From positions 1 to 23,921 of IMG/VR virus record IMGVR_UViG_3300017605_000219: 23,921 nucleotides of DNA. One strand, 5' to 3'. This DNA is from a virus. Below are positions 1-11,773 of the stretch, piece by piece. The stretch's first letter is position 1. The number at the start of each line of letters is the position of its first letter. The notes below the pieces were generated by a model. The model saw only the letters and a program-made list of their open reading frames with translations, was not told where the DNA came from and ran no database searches. Made by a program: the position numbers and the translations under genes.

Positions 1-141
1 GACGGCATTCGCCACATAGTACCCACTCGGAACCCATGAACGGGTAATCACAGGATAGCCAGCCCAATACCCAACCAGCTTGTTTGCGGGGTCGTCGGTC
101 ACGACCTGCGTGTCCACAGTGCCGGAAGTGCGACCCGGAAC
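1..141. repeat. Terminal direct repeat, left copy (circular overlap)
   Basis: Identical over 141 bases to 23781-23921. The major capsid reading frame continues in phase across the join, so the contig closes into a circle of about 23,780 bp. A 141-base overlap equals a common maximum k-mer length of metagenome assemblers, so it is probably an assembly signature and not a packaged terminal repeat. Confidence 0.95.
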
Positions 142-873
142 GGCCACGACCGCAAGGGTCAAGGCTGTGAATTTGGTCGTGGTCATGGCGGCGAGGGTTG
201 CAACGTTCGCCTGATTGACGATGAGCTGGACATTCGTGAAGCCGTGTTCGGTCACGTTTGCGATCAGCGCGTCAATGTCGGCGTTTTGTGCGGAACCGCT
301 GATATAGCCGTTATAGTGCTGATGGGTCGCGCCGTTGAAACTCGTGCCATCGGGAGCGTTCGGGATCTCCATGCCATCGGCATTTGCCAGGCGTTTGATT
401 GCGAGGGTCGTGCCATCGCCGAATTTATCCACAAAGGAATAATTCGCCTTGCCGAACAAAGCGGCTGCCAATTCCTGACGCAAGCGGGTCACGTATGCTG
501 ATTCGTACTTCAGCACTTTGGTTGCAAGGTCGGCAGGTGTTGCGCGTGCCATGTAGTCAGCGGTCCAGCCAGTCGAGCGGCTGAACTTGCGAAGCGGAAA
601 GTCAATCTCCGCGCCGCTGGATTCTTTCTGCGTGCGGGCGACGCCGGTTTCATCGACTTCGACCATTTCACCGTCTTCAGACCCGCCCCAAATGCGGCGT
701 ACATCTTCGGTGGTTTCGGCGATCATACCCATCTGGTCGGCAACCTGCGCGTTCAGCCAATCGAGATGAGCCTGAATTGCCTTTGCGATTTGGTCAAAGC
801 CAAATTCCGACGCAGGAACGAAACGCTGCGCGAGTAAATCTTCGAGGGAGTAAGTACCAATGAATCTGCTCAT
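1..873 (-). CDS. Major capsid protein, N-terminal 291 codons (gene spans contig ends)
   Basis: Open frame from ATG at 873 through base 1. On the circle it continues from 23780 to a TAG at 23565, giving 362 residues. It begins MSRFIGTYSLEDLLAQRF and is acidic and soluble with no membrane segment. It starts one base after the stop of the decoration gene (TAACATG). Size and place (scaffold, decoration, this gene, then head-tail connectors) are those of an HK97-fold capsid protein. No protease gene is seen, so maturation may need no cleavage, as in phages with a separate scaffold. The call rests on length, synteny and general look; no specific family motif was identified. Confidence 0.85.
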   Translation of the reverse strand, partial: MSRFIGTYSLEDLLAQRFVPASEFGFDQIAKAIQAHLDWLNAQVADQMGMIAETTEDVRRIWGGSEDGEMVEVDETGVARTQKESSGAEIDFPLRKFSRSTGWTADYMARATPADLATKVLKYESAYVTRLRQELAAALFGKANYSFVDKFGDGTTLAIKRLANADGMEIPNAPDGTSFNGATHQHYNGYISGSAQNADIDALIANVTEHGFTNVQLIVNQANVATLAAMTTTKFTALTLAVVAVPGRTSGTVDTQVVTDDPANKLVGYWAGYPVITRSWVPSGYYVANAV

Positions 874-874
874 G

Positions 875-1297
875 TTATGCGTTCCCTAAACGAACACCGG
901 GAGGGGCGATCACGATGATCTCAGTTGCGGAGATCGCCATGGCAATGGCTTGTCGGCCTGTCGTTTCCAGTTGATTGGCTGCGCCTGCGTAAAGCAGGGT
1001 TCCGGGAGTGTAGCTGTCGGAATCTTCGAGCCATTCCATGATCAAGCCAAGGCCTTTGATGGTCACAGGGAGTTGACCATCACTGTCACTGGCTGACATT
1101 GCGAAGCCGTCAAATCTGACGGCGGAAGTGTCATCAATCGCGGCTGTGATTGCGCCGTTCGAGTCGATATACACGGGGTCGAGCTTTGCGAATTTACCGG
1201 CACTGTTTGCCGCGCTCAGCAATTCAGAAATGTTGATACAAGTCTGCGCGCTGATCGTGTCGTAGCCGGCCTTCGTTGATTTTACAACTGCTGCCAT
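875..1297 (-). CDS. Head decoration / capsid-stabilising protein candidate
   Basis: 140 residues, ATG at 1297 preceded by GAGG. It is rich in Ala, Gly, Ser, Thr and Ile with alternating beta-type segments, and has no cysteine cluster or membrane segment apart from a hydrophobic Ala/Ile stretch near the C-terminus. It lies between scaffold and major capsid genes, where lambda gpD-like or DUF2190-like head decoration proteins are encoded. By analogy it would trimerise on the outside of the expanded capsid. Function is inferred mostly from position and size; another small head protein is possible. Confidence 0.55.
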   Translation of the reverse strand: MAAVVKSTKAGYDTISAQTCINISELLSAANSAGKFAKLDPVYIDSNGAITAAIDDTSAVRFDGFAMSASDSDGQLPVTIKGLGLIMEWLEDSDSYTPGTLLYAGAANQLETTGRQAIAMAISATEIIVIAPPGVRLGNA

Positions 1298-1306
1298 AAT
1301 TTACCT

Positions 1307-1771
1307 CTACACAATAGTTTGGGTTCTTCGCTGCGGTCCGCTGCTTTCGCGGGCGTTAGGAAGTGGAGGGATTTCCTTCTTCGTGATCACATTCGCGGGA
1401 TCGCTCAACCATTCCAACTGTGCAACGGGAGAGAGATTGTCCAGCAACTTGATAATCGGTTCGGGCAAATCCTTACGCAAGGTTTCGACCTTTTCGGCGG
1501 CGGCATCGTTCGCGGCTTGCTCGCGTTGTTCAATGGCTGTCTTGAAGGTGGAGTACTCACCTTTCAGCTCATTGTATTTCGCGTCATGCTTGCGGCGTTC
1601 GTCTGCCAAAAGTTTATTTACTTCGGTTTGTGTGAGGGTTTTTTCAGGAGCTTTTTTGCCCGGGTCCTGTTCCGGTTCTACCTTCACGTCAGTGTCGAGA
1701 ACTTCATTGTCCGCGACCTCGATTTCTTGCTCTTTGCCTTCGCCGTCCTTGCGTTTTACTTTGACTGTCAT
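1307..1771 (-). CDS. Capsid scaffolding protein
   Basis: 154 residues, ATG at 1771 after GAGG. Very charged, with an acidic N-terminus (EQEIEVADNEVLDTD) and a long Lys/Glu/Ala coiled coil at about residues 45-105 (TQTEVNKLLADERRKHDAKY onward). The C-terminal part contains LPEPIIKLLDNLSPVAQLEWL and a basic tail (GPQRRTQTIV). This layout is typical of phage scaffold proteins (GP20-like), which guide procapsid assembly through a helical core and a basic C-terminus that contacts the capsid protein. It is the first gene after the promoter at 1846-1874, so it opens the head operon. Confidence 0.8.
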   Translation of the reverse strand: MTVKVKRKDGEGKEQEIEVADNEVLDTDVKVEPEQDPGKKAPEKTLTQTEVNKLLADERRKHDAKYNELKGEYSTFKTAIEQREQAANDAAAEKVETLRKDLPEPIIKLLDNLSPVAQLEWLSDPANVITKKEIPPLPNARESSGPQRRTQTIV

Positions 1772-1828
1772 ATTTATCCTCGTTGCGGTTCGAGTAGGCC
1801 GCTCCCCTGTTGTTTTTGTGTTTTGCTG

Positions 1829-1846
1829 TGCAACTTCTTAGTTGCA
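1829..1846 (-). promoter_or_regulatory. Palindrome at the transcription start of the capsid operon
   Basis: TGCAACT and AGTTGCA form a 7-bp inverted repeat with a 4-base centre. It begins at the edge of the -10 box and covers the expected start site, so it could be a repressor operator or a hairpin at the very 5' end of the late mRNA. Which one cannot be told from sequence. Confidence 0.5.
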
Positions 1847-1874
1847 TAATATAGCAAAAAGCCCCAGTTGTCAA
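1846..1874 (-). promoter_or_regulatory. Sigma70-like promoter of the capsid (late) operon
   Basis: On the minus strand the -35 is TTGACA (1874-1869), the spacer is exactly 17 bp and the -10 is TATTAT (1851-1846), with predicted start near 1839. The -35 box lies inside the loop of the terminator at 1856-1882, so termination of the upstream block and start of the late operon share the same bases. Confidence 0.75.
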
Positions 1875-1882
1875 CCGGGGCT
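1856..1882 (-). terminator. Rho-independent terminator of the accessory block
   Basis: Minus-strand hairpin with arms AGCCCCGGT and ACTGGGGCT (one G-U pair in RNA) and a short loop, followed by TTTTT. It lies 23 bases after the stop of the 74-residue gene at 1905. The loop holds the -35 of the next promoter. Confidence 0.85.
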
Positions 1883-1883
1883 G

Positions 1884-1899
1884 TGTTTCACGTGAAACA
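1884..1899. promoter_or_regulatory. parS: Perfect chromosomal-type parS site
   Basis: TGTTTCACGTGAAACA, a 16-bp perfect palindrome identical to the consensus bound by ParB/Spo0J in many bacteria. It sits between the stop of the gene at 1905 and the terminator hairpin, 10 bases upstream of the late promoter -35. No second copy was found by eye, and no ParA- or ParB-like gene is present. It could let the phage bind host ParB, for segregation, positioning or transcription control of the late operon. Confidence 0.8.
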
Positions 1900-1904
1900 A
1901 CTTA

Positions 1905-2129
1905 CTAATCTTTGAGAGCGGGTGTTCTTATTGATATAAGTCGTTCACTCATAAGGCTATTCAAATCACGCAAGATCAAAACTTCATAGGCCAACAACTG
2001 AACTAAGTCCAAAATGCGCTCGTCTTTTATCTCAAGCAAGCGTTCTTCAAAAACACTATCGAGCGCGAATTTATGAACCGACTGCGGACGGCGACTATTC
2101 AAGTGTTTGTTATAAGCATCTTTTAGCAT
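1905..2129 (-). CDS. Hypothetical protein, 74 aa
   Basis: ATG at 2129 follows a strong GGAGGAAAC ribosome site, 8 bases after the stop of the GT-like gene. Mostly helical and charged (VFEERLLEIKDERILDLVQL), ending RTPALKD. No family recognised. It is the last gene before the parS site and terminator, so it closes the accessory block. Confidence 0.7.
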   Translation of the reverse strand: MLKDAYNKHLNSRRPQSVHKFALDSVFEERLLEIKDERILDLVQLLAYEVLILRDLNSLMSERLISIRTPALKD

Positions 2130-2137
2130 GTTTCCTC

Positions 2138-3109
2138 CTACCCCAACCCATACGGCATTTCGATCATCCTGCGAACATCCCCTTGCGTCGCTTCGTCGCT
2201 GTCCTGCCTGTATGCGTCGAGAATTTCGATTGATTTATTCAGCTCCATCAAAGTTCCACGGATGAAGCTGACCATGTTCTTATTCTTGAAGTGATCGTCG
2301 TACGCCTTTTCCCAAATCGGCCTGATCCGCTTTATCTTCTGGAAAGGCGTGAGTGCATCCAAATACCCTTCGCTTTTGACGGCTGCGGTTTCGGCTGCGT
2401 TCAAATTCTCCTGAAGCACGCGCTTCCTAAGTTCCAGGCGGGACCGATAACCTTGATCAAAGTCCTCGTATGCGTAATGTTTGCCAGTCAGCAAATGGGA
2501 TCCCGGAGCTTCGATGGACATTCCGAGGCCGCGTCCGTAGCCTACCCAATACTCGATACATGGCCGCTGGACTGCGTATTCCGTGTTTGATTCAGCCTCG
2601 AAGCCGTACAGCTCGATTGCGTGATCTGGCAGGTAATGGATCGCATAGGCCAGCATGTGCGCGAGTGTGGATGTCAGATAAATCTCACCGTGCGCCGCTT
2701 CGATCGCCTCGATGGGAAAGCGGATACAGCCGGGAACGTCCTCGTTCAAGTCCTGCATGATGATTCGCTTTGGCTTGCCGTTGGCTTGTAGTCGGCTTTC
2801 TGGGTAATGATATTCTCCCTTGTCACACCATGGACAATCGACCTCTTTTCCCTCTTGGTACGCCTTTCCACCACCCTTACAATAAAGGCATGGGTCATTG
2901 CGTTGCTTGATAAACAACGGATGATTCGGGTCTGCAAGGTTGTTCGAGCGATCCCAGTCCCAACGCTTGTGAATCTGGAAAACCACATCGTACCGCTTCA
3001 TCCAATCCTTTGATGGTCCTTCGTTGAGCGTCCAGAACTCCGCGTCTGCATCCCAAGGGATAGCCGATCTAGTGCGTGGATTCATGCCGATCATTATGAC
3101 CTTATTCAT
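2138..3109 (-). CDS. GT42/DUF115-like nucleotide-sugar fold protein with zinc-knuckle insertion
   Basis: 323 residues from the ATG at 3109, which overlaps the previous stop by 8 bases (ATGAATAA) and follows GAGG; an alternative start at 3139 would add 10 residues. The N-terminus MNKVIMIGMNPRTRSAIPWD then FWTLNE resembles the Rossmann-type start of DUF115/Maf and CstII-like sialyltransferase proteins, as does a later segment (HAIELYGFEAE). Between them lies a DnaJ-like knuckle (CLYCKGGGKAY, then CPWCDKGEYH). The C-terminal third is helical and charged. It shares the general layout of the 189-residue protein at 7234. Substrate and role are unknown; DNA or cell-surface glycan modification are both possible. 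Confidence 0.5.
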   Translation of the reverse strand: MNKVIMIGMNPRTRSAIPWDADAEFWTLNEGPSKDWMKRYDVVFQIHKRWDWDRSNNLADPNHPLFIKQRNDPCLYCKGGGKAYQEGKEVDCPWCDKGEYHYPESRLQANGKPKRIIMQDLNEDVPGCIRFPIEAIEAAHGEIYLTSTLAHMLAYAIHYLPDHAIELYGFEAESNTEYAVQRPCIEYWVGYGRGLGMSIEAPGSHLLTGKHYAYEDFDQGYRSRLELRKRVLQENLNAAETAAVKSEGYLDALTPFQKIKRIRPIWEKAYDDHFKNKNMVSFIRGTLMELNKSIEILDAYRQDSDEATQGDVRRMIEMPYGLG

Positions 3110-3317
3110 CACGCCTCGAATCGTCTTTATTACGCCCAATCTCCAATGCTTCTATCTTTTCGCGCAATTCCCTGATAATGTCTATTACACCGATCAACAT
3201 AACGTCAGTGGCGCGATCGACCAATCCTCCAGTCAGAGAAATGCCGCGCTCCTGTGCTTCGAGTGCAATTTTTTGGTATGGTGCTTCTGGTAAGTCGCTT
3301 ATTTTTCTTCCTGTCAT
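3102..3317 (-). CDS. Hypothetical protein, 71 aa
   Basis: Start taken as the ATG at 3317 because GGAGG lies 6 bases upstream; an upstream ATG at 3338 would overlap the core repeat and lacks this site. Sequence MTGRKISDLPEAPYQKIALE is followed by a hydrophobic helix (DVMLIGVIDIIRELREKIEA). No family recognised. It lies just after the last attC-like site, so its ribosome site is carried on the 18-bp sequence that also precedes the gene at 3628. Confidence 0.65.
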   Translation of the reverse strand: MTGRKISDLPEAPYQKIALEAQERGISLTGGLVDRATDVMLIGVIDIIRELREKIEALEIGRNKDDSRRDE

Positions 3318-3321
3318 TTTT

Positions 3322-3339
3322 TCCTCCGAGCCGCCCAAC
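3322..3339. repeat. 18-bp direct repeat, copy 1 (contains attC R' core)
   Basis: TCCTCCGAGCCGCCCAAC, identical to 3856-3873. On the minus strand it reads GTTGGGC (an integron GTTRRRY core) followed by the GGAGG ribosome site of the next gene. The two copies bracket both cassette-like units. Confidence 0.85.
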
Positions 3340-3457
3340 GGTTTGCGTTAGCGGCGATTGGATTTACGACGACGAACACAACCAGCACAGGTACATCTTG
3401 CCAAGATCGGATGGTTGTGTGTGCCCGAAAAATCGTCCGCTGCACGTTGTGTTAGGT
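3333..3457 (-). repeat. attC: attC-like recombination site A (125 bp)
   Basis: In gene orientation: R'' box ACCTAAC (3457-3451), 9-base spacer, L'' box AGCGGACGATT (3441-3431), a 71-base centre, L' box AATCGCCGCT (3359-3350), 10-base spacer, R' box GTTGGGC (3339-3333). L'' and L' are complementary except for one extra base in L'', the known polarity signal of attC sites. The centre folds further (ACACAACCA with TGGTTGTGT, then ATCTTG with CAAGAT). The length lies inside the usual 57-141 bp attC range. Confidence 0.65.
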
Positions 3458-3572
3458 GGCGTTTCACCTTTGCGACAATTTGACGGGCAAGTTCCATATT
3501 TTCTTGCTCACTATCACCATCGTATAGCGCGATAAATTTGGCAACTTCCTTGACAATACTTTTCTTTTTCAT
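3348..3572 (-). CDS. Cassette gene A, hypothetical 74-aa basic protein
   Basis: ATG at 3572 follows AAGGAGG. The first half is a charged helix (MKKKSIVKEVAKFIALYDGD, then MELARQIVAKVKR). The second half is encoded inside the attC-like site and ends in CTCAGCVRRRKSNRR, so that tail may be only read-through of the recombination site. No family recognised. It is the only gene of a 265-bp unit bounded by core boxes at 3598 and 3333, matching the one-gene layout of integron cassettes. Confidence 0.6.
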   Translation of the reverse strand: MKKKSIVKEVAKFIALYDGDSEQENMELARQIVAKVKRHLTQRAADDFSGTHNHPILARCTCAGCVRRRKSNRR

Positions 3573-3597
3573 AAGCCTCCTTGCGGGCAGGTTCGCC

Positions 3598-3720
3598 ACC
3601 TAACGGTTGGTATTACTTGCCGCCGATTTAGCGGACGAACACCAACCAACAAATACCGAAGCCAGCGCAGAACGCCAGCATACCTACGCCAAAGGTGGTC
3701 AAGTGCATACGGTGTTGGGC
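3598..3720 (-). repeat. attC: attC-like recombination site B (123 bp)
   Basis: In gene orientation: R'' box GCCCAAC (3720-3714), 9-base spacer, L'' box ACTTGACCACC (3704-3694), a 69-base centre, L' box GGCGGCAAGT (3624-3615), 10-base spacer, R' box GTTAGGT (3604-3598). As in site A, L'' carries one extra A after its fifth base, and spacer lengths are the same. The single mismatch between L boxes is a G-T pair on the plus (bottom) strand, the strand that is folded and cut in attC recombination. Confidence 0.65.
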
Positions 3721-3852
3721 GGCTTTTGCGACTTGGAGAAACTGCACCCGAAGAACAGCCGCCATTGCGAACACACCCAAATCGCTCAATGCAAGATCAT
3801 AGCCTTCTCGAAAATCATTTGCTAACCAACTTGCTCTTTCAGATATATTCAT
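3628..3852 (-). CDS. Cassette gene B, hypothetical 74-aa protein with C-terminal membrane segment
   Basis: ATG at 3852 follows GGAGGAGCA. N-terminal region MNISERASWLANDFREGYDL, then a hydrophobic C-terminus (FGVGMLAFCAGFGICWLVFV) encoded within the attC-like site. If translated as written it would be a small tail-anchored membrane protein. No similarity to gene A apart from the attC regions. It is the only gene of the 269-bp unit bounded by core boxes at 3867 and 3598. Confidence 0.55.
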   Translation of the reverse strand: MNISERASWLANDFREGYDLALSDLGVFAMAAVLRVQFLQVAKAAQHRMHLTTFGVGMLAFCAGFGICWLVFVR

Positions 3853-3855
3853 TGC

Positions 3856-3873
3856 TCCTCCGAGCCGCCCAAC
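3856..3873. repeat. 18-bp direct repeat, copy 2 (upstream edge of cassette array)
   Basis: Identical to 3322-3339. It contains a GTTGGGC core on the minus strand but no attC arms lie upstream, so it may mark the original insertion point. Similarity goes a little further (CAAACC three bases upstream here, directly adjacent in copy 1). Confidence 0.8.
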
Positions 3874-3896
3874 TATGGTTTGAGCAGAATGTACAT

Positions 3897-4097
3897 CTAA
3901 AAATTAAGCTTGATGTATCGTTTTCGCTTCGGTTTGATTTCGATATCGGGCAGCACGTTCTTGACTGCCTTCTATATAGCCAATTTTACCGCGTCTGTTT
4001 TGGACATCTTGTGGATTGAATCCTCATTTAGTTTATCGACCAGTGCCATGACATACAATTCGTATTCACTCAGATCTGGTCTAAACTTCCTTTTCAT
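3897..4097 (-). CDS. Small ORF, 41 aa, interrupted by in-frame TAG; 24 more codons beyond it
   Basis: ATG at 4097 follows AGGTGATGGA. It reads MKRKFRPDLSEYELYVMALV and continues to a TAG at 3974-3972. After the TAG the same frame stays open for 24 codons that look like the natural end of the protein (AVKNVLPDIEIKPKRKRYIK), stopping at 3897. TAG is an ordinary stop elsewhere (capsid and portal genes end in TAG), so this is either a nonsense mutation, read-through, or a truly short 41-residue product. Confidence 0.45.
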
Positions 4098-4101
4098 TCC
4101 A

Positions 4102-4779
4102 TCACCTATTGTCAATTTTACTCAGCATCGCAGAGGCTTTAGATCGCCAGTTCCTTGCCGTCCGATCTGTAACGCCATACTTATATTGTATCTCTCCTGT
4201 TTCCATGTTTGCGATTTCCTCGATCTGCTTTGCGGAAAGACGTGCGGAAACTTTGCGCCAATCTGATCCGCTTTCGCTCGTATTTTCGGAAACTTGCCGG
4301 AAACTTTCCGAATTTACCTTGACGATTTGATTGCCGATTGCAACGCCGCCGATAATGAAGTATGGGGTCACGTTCACCAGTACCGCCCACCACCAGAGGC
4401 TATTCCCGATCAATACCGCATCCATGCTCTCATGCCGCACGCGCGAGACGGTGAACGGGACCAGGATGAACACGCCGCTGATGATCAACCCGAACACAAG
4501 GAATGTCAACGCACGGAATCTGATTGTCCACCGCTTGCCCTGCGCGGGAATCGCGTGCCGCCAGCCGTCGAAAAGGTACGTCCCGCCGAATACGTCAAGG
4601 ACGCCCATGCCGATTCCAGACAGGCCGAGCAGCAGGGTCACGGCTTCGGAAAGCGGTCCTGTGATCATTCCCATGTCGGAGGCCACAAACGCGGCGGAGT
4701 ATCGAACGACGGTCACGACGGCGGCAGACCAGATCAGCATCCCGGAGTAGTCGCGGCCTTTAGAAGTTTTCGCGCTCAT
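4102..4779 (-). CDS. Membrane protein with cytoplasmic C-terminal helix-turn-helix
   Basis: 225 residues, ATG at 4779 after GAGGAAAC. Four hydrophobic segments at about 13-34, 38-66, 88-111 and 124-150 are followed by a polar linker (about 151-178) and a domain containing LSAKQIEEIANMETGEIQYK and YGVTDRTARNWRSKA, which looks like a helix-turn-helix of the kind found in resolvases and regulators. This would place a DNA-binding domain at the membrane, similar in layout to SpdB/DUF2637-type proteins of mobile elements, though no such homology is claimed. A role in tethering phage DNA or membrane signalling is inferred. Confidence 0.65.
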   Translation of the reverse strand: MSAKTSKGRDYSGMLIWSAAVVTVVRYSAAFVASDMGMITGPLSEAVTLLLGLSGIGMGVLDVFGGTYLFDGWRHAIPAQGKRWTIRFRALTFLVFGLIISGVFILVPFTVSRVRHESMDAVLIGNSLWWWAVLVNVTPYFIIGGVAIGNQIVKVNSESFRQVSENTSESGSDWRKVSARLSAKQIEEIANMETGEIQYKYGVTDRTARNWRSKASAMLSKIDNR

Positions 4780-4927
4780 GTTTCCTCAACGCAGAACTTG
4801 CCTCAATTGACATGAAAATGAAAAACAGAGCCAGAGCCGTGAAAAATCCTGTCTCTTTGTAAGACGCGAATATCAGTGCCAGCGTGAGAATAATCCTTCC
4901 GATTGTTGATACAGTTTCAAGTTTCAT
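4760..4927 (-). CDS. Small membrane protein, 55 aa
   Basis: The ATG at 4927 is chosen because GGAGG lies 5 bases upstream. It has one or two hydrophobic segments (TIGRIILTLALIFASY and FFTALALFFIFMSIEASSAL) and a charged end (RKHERENF). It overlaps the start of the membrane-HTH gene by 20 bases, so the two are probably translated together. It could be a partner of that protein; a holin-like role cannot be excluded. Confidence 0.6.
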   Translation of the reverse strand: MKLETVSTIGRIILTLALIFASYKETGFFTALALFFIFMSIEASSALRKHERENF

Positions 4928-4949
4928 TTCATCCTCCATGATAATTTTC

Positions 4950-4981
4950 AAAAAAGGCACGGATCGGGGAGATTGATCCGT
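4950..4981 (-). terminator. Rho-independent terminator after recT
   Basis: Minus-strand arms ACGGATC and GATCCGT around a 9-base loop, then GC and CTTTTTT. It ends the RecT block; transcription of the genes further down needs leakage or an unseen promoter. Confidence 0.75.
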
Positions 4982-5076
4982 ATCTGGCTAGTGGCCTTGC
5001 TAGGGCTCCCGAAGGCTTACGCACAGGGCGCTCCTTTTGGGACTCTTGCCAGATCGTTTCGCGCGCGGCCTCTGTT
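4982..5076 (-). other. GC-rich linker with nested inverted repeats
   Basis: 95 bases between the recT stop and its terminator. ATCTGGC (minus, 5054-5048) pairs with GCCAGAT (4988-4982), enclosing 59 bases with further short complementary runs. A 31-codon GTG frame runs into the terminator but has no support. A structured 3' UTR or small RNA is possible. Confidence 0.3.
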
Positions 5077-6099
5077 TTATTCTGTTGCCTGTCGTTCCGC
5101 ATCGATCACGTATGTCGTAATCTCTGCGATGTACGCCTTCAGGTCAAGTTCCGTGGTCTTTGCCTTTGCGATGGCGACCACTTCAATTCCCTGCTTTACT
5201 GCGCGGACCTGCAAGGCTTCCCATTCGCCCCAGGTTGCGTCCTTGACCGGGTCGGGGTTGTCGTAGCCGAGTTCTGACATGATTTCAAGCTGCGACTTCT
5301 TCGGCGCAGGTTCTTCAGTTCCCTTGATTTCAACACCTTCAAAAGCGTTGAATTTTTCCTCGGCTTGCTCATCCTCGAATTGAACAAGGAGGCGAGACAC
5401 AACGGGATTCAGAGGGGCGGTTTTGCGAAGCAGACGCTTGATCACAGTCTTTTTGAACATTTCGACGCGGGACAGCTTGTTTTTATTCCACGGGCTTTGC
5501 GGCTGTTTGTACGCGGGCGCGTAGGTTTCTGCGTACTCTTCAATTTCGGCGACGGTCATATAAAGAAAATGCTTCTCGCCGCTGTTTGGGTTTTTCACAT
5601 CCCACCACGAGGCCAGATAGCCGGTGACTTTGTGGCCGTTCGATCCTTGATCCTGCTCGATCGTGCGCCAGAAACCATTGCCACCATTGATTCGGACTTC
5701 GCCGGTCATAATGTTGGTTTCGATCTTCTCGTTGTCGTAGACTTCCACAACGTGAGAGCCGATTCCATTCTCGGAAGCCTTGTCTTTGAAGCCTTTGTAC
5801 CCCGGCATGAAGGTACATACATTCCCATAAGCCACAAGATATGCCTGACCATAAGCCGGGTCAACACTAAGGCCGAGGGTTGCAGCGCGAACCATCGAAA
5901 GATAAACACTGATCGGTGTGCAGGCTTGCAGCTTCGGGTCGGCCATGACAGCCGTTAGGACGCTCGCGGCGAACCTCTGCGCTTGCTTGTCGCCAAGCAT
6001 TGAGGAAAGGCGTGCCATTGATTCCTCGCGGTAAATATAGGAGGAGATTTTGTCAATCGGCTGTTCTTTGGTGACTGTGAGTTCTTTTGAGTTTGTCAT
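5077..6099 (-). CDS. recT: RecT-family single-strand annealing protein
   Basis: 340 residues from the ATG at 6099 (MTNSKELTVTKEQPIDKISS), two bases after the upstream stop; the frame is open another 40 codons upstream but those look non-coding. The RecT core is clear: LQACTPISVYLSMVRAATLG, then GLSVDPAYGQAYLVAYG, then CTFMPGYKGFKDKASENG, and a conserved YLASWWDVK segment. The acidic C-terminus after about residue 255 is typical. RecT anneals complementary single strands during phage recombination and replication. No RecE-type exonuclease neighbour is recognised, unless the DUF1064 nuclease at 7800 serves. Confidence 0.93.
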   Translation of the reverse strand: MTNSKELTVTKEQPIDKISSYIYREESMARLSSMLGDKQAQRFAASVLTAVMADPKLQACTPISVYLSMVRAATLGLSVDPAYGQAYLVAYGNVCTFMPGYKGFKDKASENGIGSHVVEVYDNEKIETNIMTGEVRINGGNGFWRTIEQDQGSNGHKVTGYLASWWDVKNPNSGEKHFLYMTVAEIEEYAETYAPAYKQPQSPWNKNKLSRVEMFKKTVIKRLLRKTAPLNPVVSRLLVQFEDEQAEEKFNAFEGVEIKGTEEPAPKKSQLEIMSELGYDNPDPVKDATWGEWEALQVRAVKQGIEVVAIAKAKTTELDLKAYIAEITTYVIDAERQATE

Positions 6100-6100
6100 T

Positions 6101-6352
6101 TCAGCACCCCATCGCGAAGCTGTACAAGTCGTTGCGCTCTGCATAATCAGCGCCGTAATCCTCGAAATATTCGGCCTTAGCTTGCTCGAATCCTTTCCCG
6201 TGGACCGGGCAATCGCCATTGTCGCCTATGACTTCAAGGCAGACGCAGCGGACATCGTTCAATTCTCGTTCTGCCTGCTCTGCGCGTTCCTGCGCTTCGC
6301 GGCGGTCGAGTGCATCGTGGTATTCAGTTGATGTTTTGTAATAAGTTTTCAT
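6101..6352 (-). CDS. Hypothetical protein, 83 aa, Cys/His motif
   Basis: ATG at 6352 follows AAGGAGA at 9 bases. The N-terminal half is a charged helix (LDRREAQERAEQAERELNDV); then RCVCLEV and CPVHGKG give three cysteines and a histidine that might bind a metal. It stops two bases before recT begins and so shares its transcript. Function unknown; a RecT accessory role is suggested only by position. Confidence 0.7.
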   Translation of the reverse strand: MKTYYKTSTEYHDALDRREAQERAEQAERELNDVRCVCLEVIGDNGDCPVHGKGFEQAKAEYFEDYGADYAERNDLYSFAMGC

Positions 6353-6404
6353 GTTTATTGATCTCCTTGCCCCGAATATACAACAGAAGGGGCGTGAGAA
6401 ACAT

Positions 6405-6457
6405 TGCAGTTTTCAAAAATCCAAAACTGCAATTATTCTATACGCATTGCAATTATT
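6405..6457. promoter_or_regulatory. Inverted and direct repeats in the divergent intergenic region
   Basis: TGCAGTTTT (6405-6413) and AAAACTGCA (6423-6431) form a perfect 9-bp inverted repeat. TGCAATTATT occurs at 6428-6437 and again at 6448-6457, exactly 20 bp (two helical turns) apart. The region lies between the RecT block (minus) and the HNH-AP2 gene (plus). Operator function is likely; no clear minus-strand promoter was found. Confidence 0.5.
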
Positions 6458-6484
6458 TACATATTTTGTGTTTTGTTGTAACAT
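6456..6484 (+). promoter_or_regulatory. Possible promoter of the HNH-AP2 gene
   Basis: TTTACA, 17-bp spacer, TAACAT. Start of transcription would fall at about the A of the ATG at 6491, and the gene has no ribosome site, so a leaderless mRNA is possible. The -10 match is weak. Confidence 0.35.
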
Positions 6485-6490
6485 TCATCT

Positions 6491-6976
6491 ATGAAAAAAA
6501 TAAAGCTCTCAAATGGTCAGTTTGCAATGGTAGACAATGCGGATTACGAGGAACTTCGTAAGCACAATTGGACCTACCAAAAAACCGGGACACACGCTTA
6601 TGCCGTCCGGAATCATTGGTACGATAAAAAGAACCACCTGATACGAATGCACTCTGTAATTATTGGGGGAGTTCCAAAAGGCATGGCTGTAGACCACATC
6701 GACGGCAACGGCCTGAATAATCAGCGTAAAAATCTTAGGGTTTGCACGATTGGTCAAAATGCTACTTACAGGAGAAAACCAAAAACAGGAAAGGGTTTAT
6801 ACAAAGGTGTTATGAAATATGCAGGAAAGAAAAAAACAAGCTGGCGGGCTGTTATAGGTTGCAAAGGAAAGGTTTATCACCTTGGAATGTTTACAACAGA
6901 AGAGGAAGCCGCCCGCGCTTATGACCAAAAAGCAAAAGAGTTTTTCGGGGAATATGCGTTACTAAATTTTCCATAA
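6491..6976 (+). CDS. HNH homing-type endonuclease with AP2 DNA-binding domain
   Basis: 161 residues, the only convincing plus-strand gene. The HNH core is at about 54-85, with H54, VDHIDGN (67-73) and NNQRKNLR (76-83). An AP2/ERF-like domain follows at about 102-161 (GLYKGVMKY, SWRAVIG, YHLGMFTTEEEAARAYDQKA). HNH-AP2 enzymes are free-standing selfish endonucleases common in phages. It is bounded by its own intergenic region and a bidirectional terminator, and its coding style (Lys rich, A/T rich) differs from its neighbours, all of which suggest recent insertion. Confidence 0.93.
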   Translation: MKKIKLSNGQFAMVDNADYEELRKHNWTYQKTGTHAYAVRNHWYDKKNHLIRMHSVIIGGVPKGMAVDHIDGNGLNNQRKNLRVCTIGQNATYRRKPKTGKGLYKGVMKYAGKKKTSWRAVIGCKGKVYHLGMFTTEEEAARAYDQKAKEFFGEYALLNFP

Positions 6977-6981
6977 GAAAA

Positions 6982-7010
6982 AATCACCCCGGCCGTTCTC
7001 CGGGGTGATT
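6982..7010. terminator. Bidirectional rho-independent terminator
   Basis: Perfect 11-bp arms AATCACCCCGG and CCGGGGTGATT with a 7-base loop. A run of six A lies on one side and four T on the other, so it can stop both the plus-strand HNH-AP2 transcript and the minus-strand early operon ending at 7058. Confidence 0.9.
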
Positions 7011-7057
7011 TTCGTTCGATGAAGCGTCTTATATCTTCGCCTTTCGGCGGTGGGGGA

Positions 7058-7231
7058 TTACTTTTTCAGGACAGGCGCGGCGGTCGCAATGGCGCGACCG
7101 AGGATGTACGCGATCAGCGTTTCCACCGCGAGGGTGATCTGATCGGCTGTCAGGCCAACGCGGTCGCCGAAGATCACGACGAGCAGGGCCACAACAGCAG
7201 CAATGAACTTATGAGAGGTGAGCAGTTCCAT
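7058..7231 (-). CDS. Small holin-like membrane protein, 57 aa
   Basis: ATG at 7231 with AAGGAAT upstream, 2 bases after the stop of the GT-like gene. It reads MELLTSHKFIAAVVALLVVI, then a short polar turn (GDRVGLTAD), then a second hydrophobic stretch (LIAYILGRAIATAAP) and ends LKK. Two short segments and a basic end fit small phage holins. It is the last gene before the bidirectional terminator. Function is inferred from topology only. Confidence 0.6.
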   Translation of the reverse strand: MELLTSHKFIAAVVALLVVIFGDRVGLTADQITLAVETLIAYILGRAIATAAPVLKK

Positions 7232-7233
7232 GA

Positions 7234-7803
7234 TTATTCCTTTCCGCCACGTTGGAATATTGAATCCAGCTTCGATGGGTGGCTGTGGTTGATAATTCTG
7301 CGTCCGTTTGCATTATAAACCTTTCGCGCCAGCGCGTAATGATATTCCATTTCCGACATACGCCAGGCGCGACGGTCTGTATCACCAGGCGGATAATCGT
7401 CTCTAAAGTGCTTCCAGTCCGCAGAGTGATCCACTCCCCATAAATGAACTTCCTCGAAGCCGAGATAATAAGCACACTTCAACGCCACGTACGTCACAGT
7501 CAATCCTGAAAAATAATGCTCACCGAGGAACGCGCCTTTGTCATGTGTGACCATCTGGACGTTCGGCAGTTCATAAAGCGGAGAGCTGCCGTCATGCCTC
7601 AGGGAAAGGTATGCGATCTTTCCACCTGCCGCAAGGTCGTACACTTTTCGCCAGTGTTCCATGAGGATGGCAGTATCGACGCAAACATAATACGTCGGCT
7701 GGAAGTCGCAATAGTTGACGCCGAATGAATCGTGTTTCAAAAGTAAATCCTTCGGCATGTCGTTGTATGATGGGCCGTTGCCGCAGATTATCGCTGTTTT
7801 CAT
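7234..7803 (-). CDS. GT42/DUF115-like glycosyltransferase-fold protein
   Basis: 189 residues; its ATG overlaps the DUF1064 stop by 4 bases. The N-terminus MKTAIICGNGPSYNDMP carries the GNGPS motif of CstII-type sialyltransferases and Maf/DUF115 proteins, followed by FGVNYCD, YYVCVDTAIL, and the later SGLTVTYVALKCAYYLGFEE with VHLWGVDHS. These proteins bind nucleotide sugars in a Rossmann-like fold. Phage members are often annotated as glycosyltransferase-like; substrate unknown. A possible paralogue with a zinc-knuckle insertion lies at 2138. Confidence 0.7.
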   Translation of the reverse strand: MKTAIICGNGPSYNDMPKDLLLKHDSFGVNYCDFQPTYYVCVDTAILMEHWRKVYDLAAGGKIAYLSLRHDGSSPLYELPNVQMVTHDKGAFLGEHYFSGLTVTYVALKCAYYLGFEEVHLWGVDHSADWKHFRDDYPPGDTDRRAWRMSEMEYHYALARKVYNANGRRIINHSHPSKLDSIFQRGGKE

Positions 7804-8126
7804 GCGACCTCTGTAATTGTGATATTGAACAAAGCTTCAACGAGTTTCCTTTTGATTATGTACTCTTTTGTTTTGAAGCCCTTGACATCCTCGGTCACAA
7901 GATATGAATTTTTGATGTCGTAATAACGGAAGTCGGCGACATATTTACAGACAAGCTTAAGATTTACAAGGCACTGAAAAACGGGCTGTAATTCCAAATC
8001 TTTGATCTCGCCAGCCTTTTCGAGCAGCTTCAATTCAGAATATCGGTTCGCCTCGCGCCTGCTGTCGAAAACAAAGCCATCAACCTCTGTTTTCTTATTC
8101 CCGTACTTTGATCGTCCTTCGCTCAT
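7800..8126 (-). CDS. DUF1064 family protein, PD-(D/E)XK nuclease-like
   Basis: 108 residues, ATG at 8126. The family pattern is clear: SKYGNKKTEVDGFVFDSRRE, then ANRYSELKLLEKAGEIKDLE, LQPVF, then YVADFRYYD and VTEDVKGFKT followed by K-x-K. DUF1064 proteins are phage nucleases thought to act on recombination or replication intermediates; D (ADF), E (EDVK) and K form the likely active site. One base separates it from the preceding small gene. Confidence 0.85.
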   Translation of the reverse strand: MSEGRSKYGNKKTEVDGFVFDSRREANRYSELKLLEKAGEIKDLELQPVFQCLVNLKLVCKYVADFRYYDIKNSYLVTEDVKGFKTKEYIIKRKLVEALFNITITEVA

Positions 8127-8127
8127 G

Positions 8128-8244
8128 TCAAAAGTCCTTTCGGTCGGTGATTTCGCCGTCGATGACGATGGAGGAAAACCGATTGCCTGTTCGTCGTTTC
8201 AACGGCAGGAAGCCACGGAAGAGGAAGCGGAGATATTCGATCAT
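8128..8244 (-). CDS. Small coupled ORF, 38 aa
   Basis: ATG at 8244 overlaps the stop of the zinc-ribbon gene (ATGA), and its TGA is one base before the DUF1064 start. Sequence MIEYLRFLFRGFLPLKRRTG, hydrophobic then basic, then RFSSIVIDGEITDRKDF. It loosely resembles the 39-residue product at 8455 (MI, then LF, basic, hydrophobic, acidic end). Exact coupling at both ends is the main evidence. Confidence 0.55.
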   Translation of the reverse strand: MIEYLRFLFRGFLPLKRRTGNRFSSIVIDGEITDRKDF

Positions 8245-8471
8245 TTCGGTGCTCCGCAATATGGGCATGTTCCGATTCCTTCAGAGTTCACGCCACAATA
8301 CTGGCATCTGACAACTCTCATTCTGTGGTGATGTGGAGGAATTTGGTAATCAGATGTTCCGCTGTCGTCGGAAAAGAAAAGCCTCCTATTATCACCGTGG
8401 GAAGTTATTTTAATTATCTCCGGGCCGCGTTCGCCGATAAGAATATTTAGACCATCAATTATTTTCGACAT
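8241..8471 (-). CDS. Zinc-ribbon protein, 76 aa
   Basis: The start is put at the ATG at 8471 (GGAGG 6 bases upstream). The N-terminal part (MSKIIDGLNILIGERGPEII) is followed by a His-rich stretch (PPHHHRM) and a C-terminal zinc ribbon with CQYC and CPYC pairs spaced by 9 residues. Likely binds zinc and perhaps nucleic acid or a protein partner. No family name assigned. Confidence 0.75.
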   Translation of the reverse strand: MSKIIDGLNILIGERGPEIIKITSHGDNRRLFFSDDSGTSDYQIPPHHHRMRVVRCQYCGVNSEGIGTCPYCGAPK

Positions 8472-8574
8472 CACAATCCTCCACCAACACCAGAATCGGG
8501 CGGTTCGCCTTTTCAGGGCCAGCCAGCCGCGTGCGTACAATATTCCAGAATAAACGACCGAGGATGCGGATCAT
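8455..8574 (-). CDS. Small coupled ORF, 39 aa
   Basis: ATG at 8574 overlaps the previous stop (ATGA) after GGAGAG; its end overlaps the zinc-ribbon start by 17 bases. Sequence MIRILGRLFWNIVRTRLAG then PILVLVEDCDVENN. Short amphipathic N-terminus. Unknown function; support is the tight coupling and ribosome site. Confidence 0.5.
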   Translation of the reverse strand: MIRILGRLFWNIVRTRLAGPEKANRPILVLVEDCDVENN

Positions 8575-8702
8575 TTCAGCTCTCCCATATATTTTCTCTT
8601 GCCACAAATCACACAGACCTTGATCTTGCAGAATGTGCGCTCGCCTTTAGTGTCCCAACCTGTTTGTTCAAAATACTTTCTCCAAATATGCGGACATTTC
8701 AT
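8571..8702 (-). CDS. Small Cys-rich protein, 43 aa
   Basis: ATG at 8702 overlaps the upstream stop (ATGA), and its TGA overlaps the next ATG. Sequence MKCPHIWRKYFEQTGWDTKG, then FCKIKVCVICGKRKYMGELK. Cysteines and a histidine (MKCPH near the start, CVIC later) suggest a single zinc finger. Unknown function. Confidence 0.65.
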   Translation of the reverse strand: MKCPHIWRKYFEQTGWDTKGERTFCKIKVCVICGKRKYMGELK

Positions 8703-8923
8703 TTCTGCCACCATTCTTCCTTTTCTTCAACGGGTTGCGGGTCAAGTGCTGCGGCGCGTGATGCACAAAACGCCATATTTGCGCGGCTGTCGATGGCCTT
8801 GTATTCCTCTGCGAGCTCCAGCCAGTCGGCGGCGGTTTGATCGTCGCGCCGTTGCAGGTTGCGCTTCTTCTTGTTGATGCGGGCCTGTTCCTCGAAAACG
8901 TTGGTGATTGATTCGATTGTCAT
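8699..8923 (-). CDS. Hypothetical protein, 74 aa
   Basis: Start at the ATG at 8923 (GGAGG 8 bases upstream), one base after the preceding stop. Highly charged helix (NVFEEQARINKKKRNLQRRD) followed by DWLELAEEYKAIDSRANMAF and an acidic end with two tryptophans. No family recognised; part of the replication-region operon. Confidence 0.7.
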   Translation of the reverse strand: MTIESITNVFEEQARINKKKRNLQRRDDQTAADWLELAEEYKAIDSRANMAFCASRAAALDPQPVEEKEEWWQK

Positions 8924-8924
8924 T

Positions 8925-9206
8925 TTATACGCCTCCTGTGTAATAACTATTTGCGTCCGCGATAGCCTCAAAATCAGCCTCAATATCTCCAAGCTCCCTT
9001 TGCCGAACGTATGTGCGCGCCTTGTCCCATGCTTCCCTGTGGCTTTCAGAGCTTCCAACATTGAAGCGAAAAGACTTCAACAAGATTGCGCAATCAGGAT
9101 CTGTATCGTCAAGAACTTGAACCGTTGACGTTTTATTCCTGCCTTTGCCGGCCTTTCCTCCTGATGGTCGTGCGTCGCAAATGTGGTACGTGTGTTTTTC
9201 TGTCAT
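8925..9206 (-). CDS. Hypothetical protein, 93 aa
   Basis: Start at the ATG at 9206, which overlaps the stop of the helicase-loader-like gene by ATGA and follows GAGAGGATGACGA. N-terminus MTEKHTYHICDARPSGGKAG; then TVQVLDDTDPDCAILLKSF, and a helical acidic end with DIEADFEAIADANSYYTGG. No family recognised. By position it is a small replication-region protein. Confidence 0.7.
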   Translation of the reverse strand: MTEKHTYHICDARPSGGKAGKGRNKTSTVQVLDDTDPDCAILLKSFRFNVGSSESHREAWDKARTYVRQRELGDIEADFEAIADANSYYTGGV

Positions 9207-9757
9207 TTCGTCATCCTCTCTGTAAGTTGTTTGATTTGATCTGCGGGTGCTTCGAGCCGTCCGCCTTTGGCCTCGATAAATCCGCGCACTTCGGGCAGTA
9301 ATATATCTTCCTTGCCGGCGCGTTCCTGAAATTGTTCGTAGCACTGGATAAACCGCGCCCGATCTGCGGTCTGATCCTCGCTCATGCGCAGGTTACGCCA
9401 GCCGATGGCCTCGACGGTCTTTTGTACCAGGGGATGCGACCATTCAGGCTTCCCGAAGTCACCGCCGTTGATACTGATCTGCCTGCCGACTTCCTGCCAC
9501 GCCTCGAAACTGGACGGGACATTGCGTGACATACCACGCAGCTCTGCGACCGCGCCGCGCAGCTCGCCGACAGATGGGGCAAACTTTCGCCCACTCTCGC
9601 TGATGCAATGCAGGGTTGCTGCCTTCAGTTCGTCGGTCGGGATGTCGCCGAGGATTTGCCAGTAAATCTCCGTTACCTTGTCTGTAACTTCCTGAAAGTT
9701 TGAATAAGTGACGGCAATCACCGCGAGGATTTCAGCTATATCAAGTTTAGATGCCAT
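9203..9757 (-). CDS. Replicative helicase loader/inhibitor-like protein
   Basis: 184 residues; the ATG at 9757 lies inside the last codons of the DnaD-like gene (11-base overlap). The pattern matches phage helicase-loader-type proteins (G39P-like): a helical N-terminus (VTEIYWQILGDIPTDELKAA), then FAPSVGELRGAVAEL, then SSFEAWQEVGRQI, and HPLVQKTVEAIGWRNLRMSE with ARFIQCYEQF. Such proteins bind the host DnaB-type helicase and deliver it to the phage origin. The pairing with a DnaD-like initiator just upstream supports this. Confidence 0.7.
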   Translation of the reverse strand: MASKLDIAEILAVIAVTYSNFQEVTDKVTEIYWQILGDIPTDELKAATLHCISESGRKFAPSVGELRGAVAELRGMSRNVPSSFEAWQEVGRQISINGGDFGKPEWSHPLVQKTVEAIGWRNLRMSEDQTADRARFIQCYEQFQERAGKEDILLPEVRGFIEAKGGRLEAPADQIKQLTERMTK

Positions 9758-10487
9758 TTGGATTCTCCTGTTTTTCCAGCCAGCTTTTTATGTTGGCAAG
9801 GCTCTTTTCCTGCTTCGATACCGTTGTGTTGATCGTCCGGCTCATCGGCTTCATCGCCTCCTGATTCCCTTGCGCCTTCCAGCGGGTGAGTATGGCGAGC
9901 ACGTACTTCCAACTATGCTTGTTCTGATTCGCTGATTCTCTGATCGCGTCAAGCACCCATTGAAGCGGGTAAGTGGTGGATGCTTCACGAAGTTCGTCTG
10001 CGATCATCGGGTTTATGATCCCGATCACGGATTCGTAAGCGCGGGAGATTGCGCGAAGCGCCGGATCATCCTCATTTTCTATTATTTGTTTCTTTACTTG
10101 TATCTTTGTGTCGATATTTTTGACAGGTGGTTGTAAAGATTTTTTACTGGTAGCTGTCGAATTTTTTGACACCCCCCCTGTCAAAGAAAATGACAGGCTC
10201 GCCTTACCTGTGTCCCTGTATTGATGGGGAAGTCCTGCCAGTTCCGGCGTCATATCTTCCAAATAACCAGCCTCTACCAACTTCGAAAGGTGAGCGTTGA
10301 TCGTGGCGCGGCTCAACCCCAATTCATCTGCTAGGCGGTCCTGAGAGGCTTTGCACACATTATCTGACATCTGGCAATATCGCCATGCCTTACCGAATAC
10401 GAGCGCGGCGGTCGCTCCAACATCCAAAACAACTGCGTCTATTACGGGTGTCCAGCCGTCTACCTGAGCAAGCACAGTCTTGCTCAT
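9747..10487 (-). CDS. DnaD-like replication initiator with winged helix
   Basis: 246 residues from the ATG at 10487, after AGGAAGGG. Residues about 45-90 form a winged helix (ASQDRLADELGLSRATINAH, LSKLVEAGYLED); a low-complexity Ser/Thr/Lys linker follows, then a C-terminal DnaD/DnaB2-like helical domain (AISRAYESVIGIINPMIADE, then WVLDAIRESANQNKHSWKYV, ending YVLAILTRW). This is the usual build of phage replication initiators in low-GC Gram-positive and related phages. The origin may lie in or near this gene, but no iterons were seen. Confidence 0.85.
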   Translation of the reverse strand: MSKTVLAQVDGWTPVIDAVVLDVGATAALVFGKAWRYCQMSDNVCKASQDRLADELGLSRATINAHLSKLVEAGYLEDMTPELAGLPHQYRDTGKASLSFSLTGGVSKNSTATSKKSLQPPVKNIDTKIQVKKQIIENEDDPALRAISRAYESVIGIINPMIADELREASTTYPLQWVLDAIRESANQNKHSWKYVLAILTRWKAQGNQEAMKPMSRTINTTVSKQEKSLANIKSWLEKQENPNGI

Positions 10488-10921
10488 CGGTTGCCCTTCC
10501 TGCAATTACAGGTCTTGCAAAGTGTTTGTGCGTTCTCCATAGTCAACTGACCTCCACGGCTTTCTGGAATTATGTGATCAACACTTAAGTTATTGCGCGA
10601 ACCGCAGTGCTTACAGGTGAAATTATCGCGCTCGAAAACTGCCATCCTGAAGCTTTGTGGTATGTTCTGTTTGGTTGGTTGATATTTACCCGGCTTTACG
10701 TACCTATCACAAACATCCTGAGCGCATTTCAACCAATAAGGTCTTGCGTCATTTATGGTTGATTTCTGAATCCTGAGAAATTCTCCAACAGATAGGCCGT
10801 TGAAAACATTCAGGTCAATACAAACCATCACGTCGTCGTCTGTTGGATCAACGCCATCGTGACTTTCACATCCTTGCAGTTTTACTATTCCATCCTTGTC
10901 TAAATCAACTTGCATAGTCAT
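10484..10921 (-). CDS. HNH endonuclease, zinc-binding type
   Basis: 145 residues, ATG at 10921 with GAGGAG upstream. The N-terminal ~60 residues are an unknown domain (CIDLNVFNGLSVGEFLRIQK). The C-terminus has RMAVFERDNFTCKHCGSRNN, DHIIPESRGGQ (D115, H116) and N130 with C135 and C138, the classic HNH with two CxxC zinc pairs. It is the first gene of the early operon, downstream of a long leader hairpin, and overlaps the DnaD-like gene by ATGA. Role could be packaging-associated nicking or homing; the early position favours DNA metabolism. Confidence 0.88.
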   Translation of the reverse strand: MTMQVDLDKDGIVKLQGCESHDGVDPTDDDVMVCIDLNVFNGLSVGEFLRIQKSTINDARPYWLKCAQDVCDRYVKPGKYQPTKQNIPQSFRMAVFERDNFTCKHCGSRNNLSVDHIIPESRGGQLTMENAQTLCKTCNCRKGNR

Positions 10922-10937
10922 AAAAAAACTCCTCTGC

Positions 10938-11001
10938 TTTGGGCGTTCTGCGTCTGTGGCAAGTACCCGGAAACAAAGGTAAAAGACACAGAACGCCCAA
11001 A
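10938..11001 (-). promoter_or_regulatory. Long hairpin in the 5' leader of the early operon
   Basis: 17-bp arms at 11001-10985 and 10954-10938 with a 30-base loop. On the minus-strand RNA the only non-Watson-Crick position is a G-U pair; on the plus strand it would be a C-A mismatch, so structure is favoured in the operon's own RNA. It ends just upstream of the ribosome site of the HNH gene. Confidence 0.7.
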
Positions 11002-11069
11002 AAAGGGGAGCTGCTGTTTCCGTTTCCACCTGCCACGGTGGGTTGGCATTTCTGCCTCGATTGGTTTTT

Positions 11070-11098
11070 ATCTTACTTCAAAATGATACCCATGTCAA
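11070..11098 (-). promoter_or_regulatory. Sigma70-like promoter of the early operon
   Basis: TTGACA (11098-11093), 17-bp spacer, TAAGAT (11075-11070). Predicted start is near 11063, giving a leader of about 140 bases before the HNH ATG at 10921. Confidence 0.8.
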
Positions 11099-11140
11099 TA
11101 ACTTTATGCTTTCGATAAGGTTGATTATGACAAACAAAAT

Positions 11141-11181
11141 GCAGGTCAAATACGATGAGGGGGACACCGTAAATGACCTGC
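11141..11181 (-). terminator. Probable terminator after the late operon
   Basis: Minus-strand arms GCAGGTCA and TGACCTGC, extended by TACG/CGTA inside two mismatches, 10 bases after the stop of the HTH gene, followed by ATTTTGTTT. The T-run is imperfect, so termination may be partial. Confidence 0.55.
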
Positions 11182-11190
11182 CGATTTATT

Positions 11191-11394
11191 CTAATTCAAT
11201 AATCCCAATTGTGCCAGATGGATAACCAGTTGATACGTCGTCTGCAATTTGAACTTCTCCCTTGCGTTGCGCAACCTGTTCACCGCAACTATATAGGAAA
11301 TTCCAAGATTCCGCGCTGCGCTCTTGATTGATTCGCCCTTGCTCAATTCAATTGCTATATCGAGCTGCCGCTGTGTCACTGTTTTGATTTTCAT
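11191..11394 (-). CDS. Helix-turn-helix (LuxR/GerE-type) protein, 67 aa
   Basis: ATG at 11394 shares one base with the previous stop (TAATG). Most of the protein is an HTH of the LuxR type: VTQRQLDIAIELSKGESIKS, AARNLGISYIVAVNRLRNAR, then FKLQTTYQLVIHLAQLGLL. There is no receiver or ligand domain. It lies last in the late operon and directly upstream of the early promoter, so it may control that promoter. Target unknown. Confidence 0.8.
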   Translation of the reverse strand: MKIKTVTQRQLDIAIELSKGESIKSAARNLGISYIVAVNRLRNAREKFKLQTTYQLVIHLAQLGLLN

Positions 11395-11639
11395 TATGGC
11401 ATTGCCAAAAGCGTCCTGACAAGCACAATCGCGCTGACAATTCCGCCGCCGGTCGTGAGCGCAAATAGTACGTTGCTGCGCGTGGCTACCAGTTCTACAG
11501 AACGGACGCGTGTTTCGTGATCAGCCAATTGTTTTTCATGGCGATCAAGTCGAATATCAACAAGCTCATTATGTAGGCGCATGATCTCCGCGTCTTTTGC
11601 GTGAATCTCGTCCTGAAGCTCTCTTTCCCGTTCGGTCAT
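11394..11639 (-). CDS. XhlA-like coiled-coil membrane protein (lysis candidate)
   Basis: 81 residues. The N-terminal coiled coil (MTERERELQDEIHAKDAEIM, then RHEKQLADHETRVRSVEL) is followed by a single hydrophobic segment at about 57-79 (VLFALTTGGGIVSAIVLVRT). This layout is that of XhlA/haemolysin-like proteins that accompany holins. Located after portal at the end of the late operon. No endolysin is adjacent, so lysis function is a guess from topology. Confidence 0.6.
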   Translation of the reverse strand: MTERERELQDEIHAKDAEIMRLHNELVDIRLDRHEKQLADHETRVRSVELVATRSNVLFALTTGGGIVSAIVLVRTLLAMP

Positions 11640-11728
11640 GTCTGATTCTCCCAGTCTGTGATAAATTGCGCGAGCGCCTCAAAATGGCACTTTTCCGCGC
11701 TTGCCATGGAAACACACACAGTCGGCAT
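11636..11728 (-). CDS. Small coupled ORF, 30 aa (possibly 43 aa from TTG)
   Basis: ATG at 11728 (MPTVCVSMASAEKCHFEALA) to a TGA that overlaps the next start by ATGA. The same frame is open back to the TAG stop of the portal gene, and a TTG at 11767 would give 43 residues. So the peptide is also an in-frame extension of portal beyond its amber stop. No clear ribosome site. Confidence 0.4.
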   Translation of the reverse strand: MPTVCVSMASAEKCHFEALAQFITDWENQT

Positions 11729-11773
11729 GTGAGGGGCATTGTTACGGTAGGATTTTTGATTTTCCAAGAGGAA

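Follow-up and report, generated by a model that had tools for sequence, protein, structure and literature searches.

Filamentous phages (f1/M13) have a central terminator with the promoter of gene III beside it. Partition genes are described in mycobacteriophages, in which extrachromosomal prophages encode their own ParA and ParB and have a parABS locus with repeats of an 8-bp motif, according to the excerpt of PMC7157519. The window examined here, that is, the whole stretch of DNA that was analyzed, is a viral record, 23,921 bases long, with identical ends of 141 bp, and its main genes lie on the minus strand. It encodes a major head protein (phrog_3990), a RecT-like protein, a DnaD-like helicase loader, TerL, portal and tape measure proteins, and no integrase was found among the 29 distinct window proteins scanned against Pfam and/or PHROGs. 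An earlier note on this DNA had described a compact switch made of parS, a terminator, a late promoter and a palindrome, and all of these parts were found in place, on the minus strand and within 71 bp. The features of the region are as follows.

1307 to 1771, minus strand: first gene of the capsid operon, scaffold-like (named by position; no family match)
1778 to 1808, minus strand: conserved leader, AGGGGAGCGG..TACTC..AACCGCAACGAGG, just upstream of the start of the scaffold-like gene
1829 to 1846, no strand assigned: non-conserved palindrome TGCAACT-N4-AGTTGCA, which covers the start zone
1837 to 1841, minus strand: predicted transcription start zone, placed from the -10 position only
1846 to 1851, minus strand: -10 hexamer TATTAT, a sequence match
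1852 to 1868, minus strand: promoter spacer of 17 bp, formed by the 3' arm of the stem and the T-run of the terminator
1856 to 1882, minus strand: predicted intrinsic terminator, with a 10-bp stem and GAC loop at 1882 to 1860 and a T-run to 1856
1869 to 1874, minus strand: -35 hexamer TTGACA, spanning the hairpin apex
1884 to 1899, no strand assigned: parS, the exact chromosomal-type 16-bp palindrome TGTTTCACGTGAAACA (16/16)
1905 to 2129, minus strand: ORF of 74 aa immediately before parS, for which searches gave no relatives

Anatomy and genome setting of the terminator-promoter

The predicted terminator is a stable GC-rich hairpin followed by a T-run; on the minus strand, from 1882 to 1856, it reads AGCCCCGGTTGACAACTGGGGCT and then TTTT. 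RNA folding gives the hairpin -15.7 kcal/mol (z -4.0), and its stem of 10 pairs is the longest among the terminator-like sites in positions 1 to 12000 of the window, the count of such sites in that part not being above that in shuffles. The promoter, TTGACA-17-TATTAT, scores 11/12 for sigma70 hexamers with a spacing inside the 16- to 18-bp range and is the best promoter-like site in positions 1 to 12000. The -35 hexamer had been placed in the terminator loop; it does lie at the hairpin apex, but it spans that apex rather than filling the loop, because only GAC is left as the loop and the stem takes in the TT and the last A of TTGACA. The 17-bp spacer carries the T-run of the terminator as proposed, being made of the 3' stem arm and then the T-run, and the -10 hexamer touches the 7-bp palindrome, with which it has one base in common. 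parS adjoins the -35 hexamer on its upstream side, at a distance of nine bases and not 10. Superposition of the terminator and promoter is beyond chance, as it was reproduced by 0/400 dinucleotide shuffles of the window region. An Rfam search of the window at gathering thresholds gave no RNA family match.

The point at which polymerase would be released lies inside the promoter, and this would permit a reading in which the fusion feeds polymerase, the enzyme released at the T-run staying on the DNA and re-initiating at the promoter beneath it. Retention after termination, with restart at nearby promoters, is reported in vitro on other templates in the excerpts of PMC6978380 and PMC6978322. However, restarts are usually in the reverse direction in the latter excerpt, and insulation and sequence economy explain the overlap equally well, so re-initiation is quite unlikely to be the reason for the overlap.

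The relatives of this phage have the downstream genes in common (scaffold-like, decoration-like, MCP and head-tail), while the ORFs immediately upstream differ; the element therefore sits where a variable zone gives way to the capsid operon. The 333-aa gene at 2138 to 3139 has relatives that are present at varying distances from the element. As had been suggested, a single element both closes the upstream unit and opens the capsid unit, and this is maintained in 5/5 close genomes. Repeats resembling attC (integron cassette recombination sites) were seen by eye in the accessory zone at about 3300 to 3860 of the window, 2449 to 3680 of L002 and 1 to 30 of L127, and the last such repeat of L002 abuts the terminator; attC sites in phages have already been described, as the excerpt of PMC9892861 states. 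Elsewhere in the window, a second strong promoter-like site, TTGACA-17-TAAGAT, lies at 11070 to 11098 on the minus strand, upstream of HNH/replication genes. A 67-aa ORF at 11191 to 11394, near the replication genes, has a weak match to the phage sigma-factor family phrog_3282 (E 2.7e-4) and is a candidate regulator. The protein encoded at 7234 to 7803 matches the MptE-like family (6-hydroxymethylpterin diphosphokinase) and is kept in three relatives.

Conservation of the element in close relatives

MCP searches gave no match to named phages and 10 distinct loci in viral contigs, and the DNA upstream of the capsid operon was readable in seven relatives, the records of the remaining loci not extending that far. 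The close set consists of the window, L127 (70% MCP identity to the window), G001 (68%; upstream region read from a contig end), G002 (67%) and G007 (63%). The composite, with the -35 hexamer at the terminator apex, a 17-bp spacer containing the T-run and a -10 hexamer, is present in 5/5 genomes that have at least 63% MCP identity and upstream DNA. The -35 and -10 hexamers of the four relatives are as follows.

L127: TTGTCA and TATATT, score 10/12
G001: TTTACG and TAAGAT, score 8/12
G002: TTGCAG and TACAAT, score 8/12
G007: TTTACA and TACAAA, score 9/12

The composite promoter ranks first in four of the five regions and is tied second in G001. The hairpins of the five genomes fold at -10.0 to -15.7 kcal/mol (z -3.4 to -4.6), and in every one of them the axis of the main stem lies 1 to 4 bases into the -35 hexamer, although the stems vary in sequence and register; with the register sliding along the -35 hexamer, the stem columns do not line up for a count of covariation. 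In each of the five regions, the composite was reproduced by 0/400 shuffles. A strict script passed 4/5 family members, and G002, which failed because of an internal mismatch in its stem, passes with one stem mismatch allowed. The five genomes are related (G001 and G002 share 76% identity across the element), and they therefore do not represent five independent events. The composite was not found in the more distant G005 and L130 (54 to 56% MCP identity), in L282 and L283 (42.5%) or, by eye, in L003. As to the earlier suggestion to look for the arrangement in relatives, the terminator-promoter overlap is thus a property of all five close genomes, and the distant ones are without it.

Genome compaction only, with the terminator and promoter overlapping in a small gap without functional coupling, would be in keeping with genomes of 22 to 24 kb and tightly packed genes. 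Against this explanation, the same 17-bp spacing and apex position are rebuilt from different stems in 5/5 genomes, and only 7/260 terminators in 120 unrelated viral stretches carry a promoter of at least 8/12 with 17-bp spacing (2/260 at a score of at least 10/12), which makes compaction alone an unlikely account. The conserved unit is the fused terminator-promoter between the variable accessory zone and the capsid operon, and it is kept in a small family of environmental phages while the sequence of the stem turns over.

The leader is common to six genomes (the window, L127, G001, G002, G007 and G005); its pattern, GGGGAG..TAC..AAC..AGG, precedes the first capsid-operon gene by about 30 bases, with possible small hairpins of varying sequence. 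The start-site palindrome is not significant by itself, since, by a rough estimate, an intergenic stretch of this size has a chance of about 5% of containing inverted 7-bp arms separated by a short spacer. It was rejected as a conserved operator, there being no second close copy in the window and none seen by eye in L127, G001, G002 and G007.

parS in this phage and in other viral DNA

The site at 1884 to 1899 has 0 mismatches to the chromosomal-type parS consensus and is the sole site within 3 mismatches in the window, shuffles of which average 0.14 matches at that tolerance. In the records of the 10 relatives, several of which are fragments, parS is more than 3 mismatches away in nine, and the tenth has one 3-mismatch site elsewhere; none (0/10) therefore has parS beside the promoter within 2 mismatches. 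Neither parS nor the start-site palindrome is shared with the relatives; both are private to this phage, and a ParB switch conserved in the family therefore lacks support. No ParB_N domain (PF02195) was found in the whole window record at E <= 1e-3, and the window is not a phage-plasmid that pairs its own ParB with parS. The presence of exact parS in such a phage suggests that the phage borrows a host protein.

Such sites are widespread. At least 120 viral stretches contain exact parS, whereas two control palindromes of equal composition are present in 7 and 5; some of the contigs counted as viral may be host DNA or plasmids. A rough capture-recapture estimate (120 x 89 / 4), which assumes a fair sample and takes contigs without dereplication, gives a total of about 2,700 parS stretches. 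The 120 stretches hold 146 sites, 57 of which are not wholly inside an ORF of at least 60 aa, compared with 10.9 expected. ParB_N is above the cut-off in 3, and at E <= 1e-3 in 5, of the 85 distinct parS records searched (50 + 50 with 15 in common). The parS-bearing records include L007 to L126 and L144 to L228 (viral contigs) and L229 (Lactobacillus phage Bacchae). In the record of L092 (G076), a cluster of parS-like sites extends for about 20 kb, at 91700 to 112381; at least two dozen sites there are within one mismatch, and most read TGTTTCACGTGGAACA. Four Lactobacillus Herelleviridae-related records have 2 to 3 parS sites each within one mismatch and no ParB_N; two of them have candidate matches to the named phages Bacchae and Lpa804, and the Lactobacillus Herelleviridae to which the four are related are lytic. 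That parS in the window arose by chance or is nonfunctional debris from a host, as its restriction to one genome of the family might indicate, is the least likely of the explanations weighed here, since by arithmetic 24 kb would contain a given 16-mer about 6e-6 times and viral collections hold parS far above control palindromes, with an intergenic bias.

In the unbiased sample, 11 promoters of at least 9/12 lie within 40 bp of the 146 viral parS sites (10.2 expected), and 9 lie near the 57 intergenic sites (8.4 expected); viral parS is therefore not generally promoter-linked, and a general link between parS and promoters was rejected. A -10 hexamer of at least 4/6 follows TTGACA in 33/91 cases near parS, compared with 191/697 cases of TTGACA elsewhere, which is a modest excess. 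Terminator-like hairpins lie near 9/146 viral parS sites, a raw count without a control. These numbers bear on the switch of the earlier note, in which ParB at parS (-45 to -60 of the inferred promoter) would repress or activate the capsid promoter, or act as a roadblock to polymerase ahead of the terminator, and both operons would in this way be under ParB control. The site does adjoin the -35 hexamer, and a strong promoter follows parS in similar cases elsewhere, such as four Lactobacillus Harbinvirus-type records in which TTGACA begins 14 bp after parS. However, parS is missing from the relatives, promoters are not enriched around viral parS sites, and the excess of -10 hexamers after nearby TTGACA is modest; such a switch is very unlikely. 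As a conserved arrangement, the ParB switch over both operons was not supported by the comparison, the combined 71-bp switch is unproven, and an effect of ParB on transcription at this element is possible.

Candidate hosts were sought in bacterial genomes. MCP relatives were not found there, and a TerL search gave 46 loci, the best of which include Anaerolineae MAGs at 39 to 44% identity; because the identity is only this high, an Anaerolineae host is only a lead. Exact parS is present in 25/60 genomes sampled from the class of one such Anaerolineae MAG, with 0 for the reversed control, and is clustered in another Anaerolineales MAG. A host of this class would thus be expected to recognize the phage site.

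Host-type parS in viral DNA without ParB is a more surprising lead than the fused element, and no description of host-type parS in phage DNA without ParB was found in the open-license papers searched. We propose tentatively, as a serious possibility, that many phages without ParB, lytic ones included, carry the exact parS of the host for loading of the host ParB clamp, leading to chromosome-like treatment of their DNA (positioning, SMC loading or protection). In the window, the site is set against a capsid promoter, and host partition and late transcription would meet in one 71-bp element.

Proposed mechanism and comparison with known systems

The explanation that we regard as probable overall is an insulating terminator-promoter boundary together with an independently acquired loading site for host ParB. 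The activities that we infer for the element (termination, initiation and ParB binding) and its purpose would fit together as follows. The border of the variable accessory zone and the capsid operon is marked by the superposed intrinsic terminator and sigma70-type promoter. RNA polymerase arriving from the accessory genes would make the GC hairpin and leave the template at the T-run, which lies within the spacer of the capsid promoter, and host polymerase would start the capsid mRNA about 5 to 9 bases past the -10 hexamer. The DNA common to both signals may keep capsid transcription independent of whichever accessory genes are upstream. Exact parS would be a later and separate addition, which most likely serves host ParB for the loading of its clamp; the phage DNA would thereby come under the host ParABS/SMC system, and the effect of parS on the capsid promoter is probably secondary.

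A U-tract that doubles as a promoter spacer offers a clean natural test of whether termination feeds or insulates initiation on the same DNA. The marked excess of parS in viral DNA without ParB points to the use of the host chromosome segregation system by phages, which is directly testable in cultured Lactobacillus phages.

Like f1/M13, this phage packs a terminator and the next promoter into one short gap, but the two are unrelated and the likeness is one of general layout. The parS site is the identical 16-mer of chromosomal ParABS systems, whereas here it lies on a phage genome without ParB_N. With the mycobacteriophage parABS prophages, as far as the excerpt of PMC7157519 describes them, this phage has a partition site on phage DNA in common, and it differs in having only a host-type parS and no ParB_N of its own. 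The terminator has the GC hairpin and T-run of an intrinsic (Rho-independent) terminator, and the promoter has the TTGACA-17-TATTAT form of bacterial sigma70-type promoters, with TG before the -10 hexamer in G001, G002 and G007. What sets the locus apart from both is that the T-run and 3' stem arm of the terminator double as the promoter spacer, and the -35 hexamer sits at the apex of the terminator hairpin.
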